Shown piece after piece: positions 26,794 through 29,910 of a stretch of DNA of 64,000 nt. The position numbers and the translations under genes are program-made. The DNA is from Snodgrassella alvi (GTDB taxonomy: Bacteria; Pseudomonadota; Gammaproteobacteria; Burkholderiales; Neisseriaceae), in assembly GCF_002777855.1 (NCBI RefSeq), contig NZ_MEIK01000029.1, forward strand, positions 186,001 through 250,000. The letters are read 5' to 3'. The notes under the pieces are model-generated. The model was not told where the DNA came from, did no database searches, and worked only from the letters and a program-made list of their open reading frames with translations. Every line of letters starts with the position of its first letter. Position 1 is the stretch's first letter.

Positions 26794-27264
26794 ATGAATA
26801 TTACTATATTGGCTGTAGGAACGAAGATGCCGCAATGGGTGGATCATGCGGTGCGTGATTACAGCAAAAGATTTGGCCGAGAAATTCAGTTTCAGCTTAA
26901 AGAAATCAAACCTGAAAAACGAGGTGCCGGTGTTAATGCCGCGCAGGCTATGGCAGCTGAAGAACAGCGCATTGTTGCAGCCATACCCGCACATAGTTAT
27001 CTGATTGTATTGGATGAGCGTGGTAAGGCACCCACTTCAATGGAACTGGCCGATAGTTTAAAAAAATGGCAACAGCAGGGCGACAATCTGTGTTTTATTA
27101 TTGGTGGAGCTGATGGCATGACGACCAATTTGAAGCAGCGGGCAAATATGTTGATGCGATTGTCGAGCCTGACTTTACCACACGGTATGGTAAGGGTGTT
27201 GCTGACTGAGCAGCTATATCGTGCTCAGTCTATTCTGCATAATCATCCCTACCATCGTGAATAA
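26794..27264 (+). CDS. rlmH: 23S rRNA pseudouridine1915 N3-methyltransferase RlmH
   Basis: A 156-residue SPOUT-class methyltransferase that modifies pseudouridine 1915 in helix 69 of 23S rRNA. The knotted SAM site is seen in IIGGADGM and LPHGMVRVLLTEQLYRA, and the end NHPYHRE is invariant. It is the classic partner of rsfS, 26 bases upstream. Confidence 0.96.
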   Translation: MNITILAVGTKMPQWVDHAVRDYSKRFGREIQFQLKEIKPEKRGAGVNAAQAMAAEEQRIVAAIPAHSYLIVLDERGKAPTSMELADSLKKWQQQGDNLCFIIGGADGMTTNLKQRANMLMRLSSLTLPHGMVRVLLTEQLYRAQSILHNHPYHRE

Positions 27265-27368
27265 TTTCTTAAGGTAGTTACTGCCTCTTGTCGCAGAACT
27301 TATGTGACTCGAGGTGCTAATTATTTATAATTAATCTAGATAGAAATAATGTCCTGACATAGAATGAA

Positions 27369-27387
27369 TACCCCCGAACAGGGGGTA
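27369..27387. promoter_or_regulatory. Perfect palindrome over the putative dxs promoter
   Basis: TACCCCC (27369-27375), a five-base spacer and GGGGGTA (27381-27387) form a perfect inverted repeat. A TATAAT box lies eight bases downstream at 27396-27401, and the place where a -35 box would fall is the centre of the palindrome, which has no TTGACA-like sequence. That layout suggests an operator. C/G tracts flanked by TA recall operators of CsoR/RcnR/FrmR-family repressors; that link is inference only. Confidence 0.45.
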
Positions 27388-27437
27388 GGCTAGTATATAA
27401 TTGCGCTAGCAATCAGATTGCTAGTGCTAATAGCCTA
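27386..27437 (+). repeat. Nested inverted repeats upstream of dxs
   Basis: TAGGCTA (27386-27392) pairs with TAGCCTA (27431-27437). Inside them GCGCTAGCAAT (27403-27413) pairs with ATTGCTAGTGC (27417-27427), an 11-bp stem with one G-T pair and a three-base loop. If transcription starts near 27408 the inner hairpin would be the very 5' end of the mRNA. Confidence 0.5.
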
Positions 27438-27475
27438 TATTGTCTGAATTTATTCATAATAAGTAAAGTCTGATC

Positions 27476-29356
27476 ATGAATCCTACCCCTCTCCTTGATA
27501 CAATTGATCTACCACAGGATTTGCGTCGTTTGCAAAAAAGCCAGTTACCCCAACTGGCAGATGAATTGCGTGCGTATTTGCTGGAATCAGTAAGCAAGAC
27601 AGGGGGGCACTTTGCGAGTAATTTGGGTGCAGTTGAGTTAACTGTAGCCCTACACTATGTGTACCAGACGCCACAGGATCATTTGGTATGGGATGTGGGT
27701 CATCAGAGTTATCCGCATAAAATTTTGACCGGACGTAAAGGAAAAATGGCTACGATGCGCCAGTTTGGCGGTCTGGCTGGATTTCCGAAACGCAGTGAAT
27801 CTGAATACGACGTATTTGGTGTAGGCCATTCTTCTACCTCTATCGGTGCGGCATTGGGTATGGCGGTGGCCGATAAATTGCAGCACAGAAACAATCGAAG
27901 TGTGGCGATTATTGGTGATGGTGCTATGACAGCAGGGCAGGCGTTTGAAGCGTTGAATAATGCTGGTGATATGGACGTGGATTTACTTGTTATTTTAAAT
28001 GACAATGAGATGTCTATTTCTCCTAATGTTGGTGCTCTTCCGAAATATCTGGCCAGAAATCCTTTGCATGATGTTAAAGGACTGGTGAAATCAATCAAGC
28101 AAAAATCAGAAAAGGTTTTGGGTATGGTACCCGGGGCTCTAGATGTAGCGCAGCGGGTAGAAAACAAAATCAAAGGCCTAATTGAAGAAAGTACCACTTC
28201 GGAAACGCTGTCCTTATTCGATAATTTTGGCTTTACTTATTCCGGACCAGTTGATGGACATGATGTTATTCAGCTTGTAGATGTACTTCAGGATATGCGC
28301 AACCGGAAAGGGCCGCAATTATTGCATATCATTACCAAAAAAGGCCAAGGTTACAAACTGGCAGAAAATGATCCTGTAACTTTTCACGCAGTCAGTGCTT
28401 TTGATCCGGCTCAGGGCCTGTATTCATCTGGTGCAAATGCTTCTAATCCGACTTATACCCAGATATTCAGCCAATGGATAATTGATCAGGCAGCGGCAGA
28501 TAAAAAACTGCTGGCTATTACCCCTGCTATGCGAGAAGGCAGTGGACTGGTGGAGTTTGCTCGTCGTTATCCAGAACGTTATTTTGATGTCGGAATTGCG
28601 GAGCAGCATGCAGTCACGTTTGCGGCAGGTCTGGCTTGTGAGCAAATGAAGCCGGTAGTAGCTATTTATTCCACTTTTCTACAACGTGCGTATGATCAGC
28701 TCATTCACGATGTTGCTTTGCAAAATTTACCAGTTTTGTTTGCCATTGACCGTGGCGGAATTGTAGGTGCTGATGGTCCGACACATGCAGGTGTTTATGA
28801 TTTAAGCTACCTTCGTTGTGTGCCTAATTTGGTTATTGCCGTACCAAGCGATGAACATGAATGTCGTTTACTGCTATCTAGCTGTTACCAGCTCAATCAG
28901 CCAGCTGCTGTACGCTATCCTAGAGGGGCAGGTACAGGTGTACCAGCTGGTACGAATTTGGCAACTGTAGCAATTGGTAAGGGGGTAGTACGTCGTCAGG
29001 GGCAAAGGATTGCTTTAATTGCATTTGGAAGTATGGTATCAGCTGCTATGTGTGTAGCGGATGCTATCGATGCTACAGTGGCTGATATGCGGTTTGTTAA
29101 ACCACTGGATACCGAACTTTTACTTCATCTGGCTGCTGAACATGATTATTTGGTGACCGTTGAAGAAAATAGTAGGATTGGTGGGGCTGGCAGTGCAGTG
29201 CTTGAAGTGCTGGCACAGCATAATTTAGTCAAACCGGTTCTCACACTGGGCATACCTGATATTGTAACTGAGCATGGTGATTCAGCTCAGCTATTAAACC
29301 AGATGGGACTGAGTGCTGCCAAAATTCAGCAACACATTCTTGATTGGGTCGTTTAG
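27476..29356 (+). CDS. dxs: 1-Deoxy-D-xylulose-5-phosphate synthase
   Basis: A 626-residue thiamine diphosphate enzyme that condenses pyruvate with glyceraldehyde 3-phosphate, the first step of the MEP isoprenoid pathway and a source for thiamine and pyridoxal synthesis. The N-terminal domain has [17 protein letters not shown] and the ThDP motif [18 protein letters not shown]; the middle domain has [18 protein letters not shown] with the catalytic Glu. Full length. It begins about 210 bases after rlmH, behind an unusual palindromic promoter region. Confidence 0.96.
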
Positions 29357-29837
29357 TTTTTAGCTAAAATTCTGGTTTAGGCTTGGTTTCAATGTTCTAA
29401 ATCTTCTAAGCATATTTGACATAAATTCTTGTGGTTGCAGTTGCAAATTAAATAGAAACTAATCTAATAGCCAGAAAAAATTAGGTGTTATGCTTTTTTC
29501 AACATTATATTGATTCAATTGTTAATACATGATGATTTAGTTTAAAACCTATTTTCGTTGGACGTTTTCTTATATTGATTTTAGTCAGTTTTCAGTAGCT
29601 AATTTTAGTTATATGCGAATCAATTCAATAATTAAATCTGTTGTTCGTCAGTTATAATATTTCTTCATTAGCAGCTTTTTGGTCATTGCTGGTGTCTTTA
29701 GTTGGTTGAAAATTTAATTTAATATCCTACATAAAAACTTTGCTGTAATGGCTTCTGCTTAGAACGAAATTTCCATTTTACGAGTAGTAGAAAGGATGCA
29801 GCATAACCTCTCTTTGGTTAAATATTGGTATTTATAT
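29357..29837. other. AT-rich intergenic region after dxs
   Basis: Nearly 500 AT-rich bases with no open frame carrying a ribosome binding site and no strong terminator for dxs; a short self-complementary TTTTAGCTAAAA lies just after the stop. I see no recognisable small RNA or riboswitch. Confidence 0.5.
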
Positions 29838-29866
29838 TTGGAGTGATTGCCTAAAAAATGTACAAT
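29838..29866 (+). promoter_or_regulatory. Putative promoter of dusB-fis
   Basis: TTGGAG (29838-29843), a 17-base spacer and TACAAT (29861-29866) form a good sigma-70 type match, about 45 bases before the dusB start. Confidence 0.45.
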
Positions 29867-29910
29867 AATTCACCTCTGAATATTGATTTCCCATAATTAG
29901 TCTACTGAAT

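Follow-up and report, generated by a model that had tools for sequence, protein, structure and literature searches.

A conserved palindrome in the -35 region of the dxs promoter of alvi-type Snodgrassella

We examined the promoter of dxs in a 64-kb window (the whole 64,000-nucleotide stretch that was analysed) of the Snodgrassella alvi genome. The features are listed in Table 1. The gene encodes 1-deoxy-D-xylulose-5-phosphate synthase, whose product supplies isoprenoids, as well as thiamine and pyridoxal phosphate. Its nearest named relatives are from S. alvi, S. communis and S. gandavensis strains (89–91% identity). Among the genomes compared, identity was 83–91% in G001–G010 and 77–78% in G011 and G012, which belong to the same genus. 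A search of the plasmid collection with dxs gave no match. The gene upstream, on the same strand, is presumably rlmH-like, judging from its sequence. Downstream, 554 bases (29357–29910) separate dxs from a gene that we take to be dusA-like, and this gap holds no listed open reading frame of at least 80 aa.

Table 1. Features at the dxs promoter, in window coordinates.
Feature	Position	Strand	Remarks
rlmH-like gene	26794..27264	+	Same strand as dxs; 104 bases lie between the end of its frame and the palindrome
AT-rich conserved block	27342..27368	.	Upstream of the palindrome; 17/28 alignment columns invariant
CTGACA, -35-like	27354..27359	+	36 bp from TATAAT
Palindrome TACCCCC-GAACA-GGGGGTA	27369..27387	.	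Proposed operator or structural element; conserved at dxs in 8/14 Snodgrassella genomes
-10 box TATAAT of dxs	27396..27401	+	Invariant across 8 palindrome-bearing genomes
Quasi-palindrome, 11-bp RNA hairpin	27403..27427	+	Source strain only; not conserved
dxs, 1-deoxy-D-xylulose-5-phosphate synthase	27476..29356	+	626 aa; name from the earlier sequence-only reading and by recognition

The palindrome, TACCCCCGAACAGGGGGTA, has perfect 7-bp arms and is separated from the TATAAT by 8 bp. A promoter scan found no -35 hexamer 16–18 bp from this -10 box, the range of consensus sigma-70 spacing. The hexamer in the slot for 17-bp spacing is CCCGAA. Relative to the transcription start expected from the -10 box (~27408), the palindrome would span approximately -39 to -21. 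Hence, sequence and scan agree with the sequence-only reading, which had placed a perfect palindrome where the -35 element should be, eight bases before a TATAAT. The palindrome is unique in the window at ≤2 mismatches (shuffle mean 0.07). The 2.34-Mb genome, searched for further copies as that reading had suggested, holds a single exact copy, the one at dxs. Tested as a repeat element, the promoter region gave a strong match at the dxs locus only. No known RNA family had a credible match at the locus.

All 61 genomes searched contain dxs. We checked the 400 bases upstream, corrected for orientation, at 30 dxs loci. The palindrome was present at seven: those of the source genome, G002, G003, G006, G008, G009 and G010. 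A motif search of 14 Snodgrassella genomes added G061, from the same species as the source, so that 8 of the 14 carry the palindrome. In each of these eight alvi-type genomes the pattern TACCCC-N3..9-GGGGTA occurs exactly once, before dxs. The palindrome is absent before dxs in the six other Snodgrassella and at 17 dxs loci of other genera. Away from dxs, the pattern was found in three of the six palindrome-less Snodgrassella; the G012 copy lies behind hfq in a terminator-like setting, and those of G001 and G011 are inside coding frames. The sequence-only reading had been staked on conservation of the palindrome upstream of dxs in relatives, and it withstood this comparison. Such conservation argues for a dedicated cis-element in the promoter of dxs. 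As is expected of an operator, the inverted repeat is conserved across species at a promoter.

Fourfold-degenerate sites of dxs differ by 0.59–0.64 between the source genome and the six palindrome-bearing genomes other than G061. Across all eight genomes, no change is seen in 12/14 columns of the arms or in any of the six columns of TATAAT. Invariant columns number 16/92 for the upstream intergenic part and 14/52 for the 5' leader. The 8-bp distance between palindrome and TATAAT is constant in 8/8 genomes, and indels are abundant in the leader beyond. The arms are identical in seven genomes. The exception is G009 (locus L008), which has TACCCCTGTATAGGGGTA, with one arm base altered and one G missing. 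Its arms, TACCCCT-GTAT-AGGGGTA, re-form seven pairs around a 4-base centre. Conservation in eight genomes despite ~60% fourfold divergence, together with absence at the other dxs loci checked, indicates that the palindrome is a clade-specific, strongly selected cis-element of dxs. On this comparison, we take its conservation to be neither chance nor drift.

Other dxs promoters are arranged differently. Four palindrome-less Snodgrassella loci (L011–L014) have a doubled TGCTATATAAT-like -10 motif ~70–90 bases before dxs. Among L015–L024, an extended -10, for example CTTGnTATAAT, is present in several dxs promoters from elsewhere in the family; the palindrome-bearing group lacks it.

An 11-bp hairpin at the 5' end of the mRNA had also been proposed. 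The stem at 27403–27427 does fold in the source strain (z -2.25). Since the expected start falls on or after the first bases of the stem, approximately 9 bp of it would be transcribed. Compared with the source strain, G061 lacks one A in the left arm and has G instead of C in the right arm. Both differences break the stem, and the hairpin is missing from the predicted G061 fold. At the same position, the sequence is unrelated in the six other palindrome-bearing genomes; the three of their leaders that were folded (L006, L008 and L009) were no more stable than shuffles. Thus, the stem is real in the source sequence, but as a conserved element we reject it, being broken within the species and replaced by unrelated sequence elsewhere. 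The alignment indicates that 27403–27427 is a strain-level quasi-palindrome outside the conserved control element. The source-strain states at both G061 differences improve pairing, as expected of template-switching correction of a quasi-palindrome. Perhaps the stem was recently perfected in this way.

What might the palindrome do? We give about an even chance to a dxs regulator having this palindrome as its only operator. Behind this reading stand the observed presence, position, single copy and conservation of the palindrome; we infer the bound protein, the sign of its effect and its signal. Alvi-type Snodgrassella would have acquired a protein-binding site in the dxs promoter, in the stretch that sigma region 4 would contact if a -35 element were there. 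Because of this placement, a dimeric regulator might either block the promoter or replace the absent -35 contact. Entry into the MEP pathway would be tuned in this way. An operator is the best fit because of the position, the missing -35 element, the fixed distance to the -10 box and the strong selection. A comparable case is reported from Corynebacterium glutamicum, where the MarR-type CrtR acts on the crt operon promoter (PMC7432914, PMC5401885). There, as proposed here, an isoprenoid-pathway promoter has a single dedicated operator. However, the gene, the bacterium and the motif differ, and for dxs the binding is only inferred. A literature search covering titles and abstract openings found no publication on this dxs promoter.

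Some observations weigh against an operator. At ≤2 mismatches, the eight genomes hold 17 sites away from dxs, and the reversed control gave 17 matches. None of these sites forms a second conserved palindrome common to the group, and the two contexts inspected (L002 and L003) are both in coding frames. Hence, no regulon backs the case for a regulator, and neither can be named. Operators commonly, though not obligatorily, recur elsewhere in the genome or beside the gene of their regulator; no such copy was seen. In addition, the half-sites TACCCC and GGGGTA of G009 are 6 bases apart rather than 7, which is ill-suited to a rigid dimer. In the class, motifs with ATACCCCC arms occur in 3 of 369 genomes: one copy is terminator-like, one is in a coding frame and one is without clear context.

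Five regulator families were searched: CsoR/RcnR/FrmR (PF02583), GntR, MerR, Rrf2 and TetR. GntR proteins are rejected as the common binder, with no match in the palindrome-bearing G003. TetR matches number 3–7 in each of the eight palindrome-bearing genomes and 2–5 in the other six, and so are uninformative. The source genome has two real Rrf2 members. One, of 168 aa, looks NsrR-like because a flavohaemoglobin gene adjoins; the other is presumably IscR. A third Rrf2 match, in all eight genomes, is a false one to a membrane protein, which we take to be of the YihY type. Control of dxs by a dedicated repressor or activator, as first proposed, is supported as regards its cis-element, which is conserved at the promoter, and not as regards its regulator, which was not identified among these families.

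The main rival to an operator is a structural role, as a hairpin or terminator-like element. The palindrome could form an RNA hairpin, terminator-like or protecting a 3' end, that acts on read-through out of the rlmH operon or on an antisense transcript, and so insulate dxs. We consider this possible but doubtful. The stem is strong (-12.7 to -16 kcal/mol for the three sequences folded), and the re-formed arms of L008 preserve its pairing. Very similar stems of the ATACCCC..GGGGTATTTT kind resemble ordinary terminators where they follow hfq (G012) and an Hsp20-like gene (G088), and the minus strand at dxs received a terminator-like call from the scan. However, the plus strand after the stem has TAGGCTAGTATATAAT-type sequence with no T run, and the scan called no plus-strand terminator. 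Of the GC stem and T run expected of an intrinsic terminator for the upstream operon, the stem alone is present. For an antisense transcript, no minus-strand promoter was called within 27150–27600. Conservation also covers ~27 bp on the upstream side and, on the other, continues across the -10 box. Hence, the dxs palindrome shares its stem sequence with the ATACCCC..GGGGTAT terminators, such as that behind hfq, but differs in lacking the T run and in its fixed position relative to the -10 box. The G088 element (L118, 1501–1520) reads ATACCCCCATATGGGGGTAT followed by a T run; it is a terminator whose stem is almost the same. Long-range pairing of GGGGTAGG (27382–27389) with CCTACCCC (27482–27489) in the start of dxs was set aside, because transcription would have to begin before the palindrome and the pairing is lost in L007.

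A further reading takes the palindrome for 19 bp inserted into the spacer of a TTGACA-N17-TATAAT sigma-70 promoter. Folding into a cruciform, or pinching by a protein, would bring the spacing back to 17 bp and so activate dxs, perhaps in a supercoiling-sensitive manner. The hexamer upstream is TTGACA in five of the eight genomes, CTGACA in two, including the source, and TCGTCA in one (L007). It lies 36 bp from TATAAT in six genomes and 35 bp in L008, leaving 17 bp once the palindrome is removed. In L007 (G006), where the hexamer is poor, the spacing is 37 bp, or 18 after removal. The chance of finding such a hexamer in the slot is 0.0037 for exact TTGACA and 0.042 with one mismatch. Nonetheless, the slot was noticed post hoc, and the match of 17 and 19 bp could be chance. 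Only three of the six hexamer columns are invariant, the deviations in the source genome and L007 included. Furthermore, sister promoters without the palindrome align to the excised form no better than shuffles (20 comparisons, shuffle fraction 0.11–0.64). By rough energetics, extrusion would cost 13.5–15.1 kcal/mol, the junction not counted, and the gain at a superhelix density of -0.06 would be 13–16. The gain falls to 7–8 kcal/mol at -0.03. Extrusion is thus predicted to be unfavourable at moderate supercoiling, the arms being short and GC-rich, and to break even at high supercoiling at best. We regard an insert of this kind as improbable.

A MerR-family operator in a distorted spacer is less credible still, and we reject it as very unlikely. 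The palindrome does sit between TTGACA-like and TATAAT boxes, as in MerR-type promoters, and MerR proteins occur in 14/14 genomes. Typical MerR promoters have a 19–20 bp spacer that contains a palindrome centred at approximately -22. Here, by contrast, the spacer is 36 bp (35–37 over the genomes), with the palindrome centred at approximately -30. Palindrome-bearing genomes have 1–4 MerR matches each, four of them a single match. The protein inspected in three genomes (G002, G000 and G003) is CueR-like and encoded beside a copper ATPase, and the intergenic region of its gene has no such palindrome. Hence, no suitable MerR protein was found.

The sequence-only reading had likened the half-sites to operators of CsoR/RcnR/FrmR, sensors of metals or formaldehyde, for a possible resemblance of the C-tract and G-tract half-sites (here ACCCCC and GGGGGT), and had called for a search for such a gene. 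We attach next to no weight to this assignment, since PF02583 is absent from all eight palindrome-bearing genomes, whereas the same search was positive in six of the 14 genomes used as controls, E. coli and B. subtilis among them. The family was detected in one of the 14 Snodgrassella, G012, where dxs has no such palindrome. The proposal is refuted unless a highly diverged homologue lies below the reach of the profile.

We know of few dedicated transcriptional switches of dxs. If the spacer reading were true, the promoter would have an unusual architecture, with a structural switch governing the first enzyme of the MEP pathway. In any event, dxs of a bee-gut symbiont that can be cultivated has a strongly selected, single-copy promoter element, which offers a direct handle: one promoter and one site.
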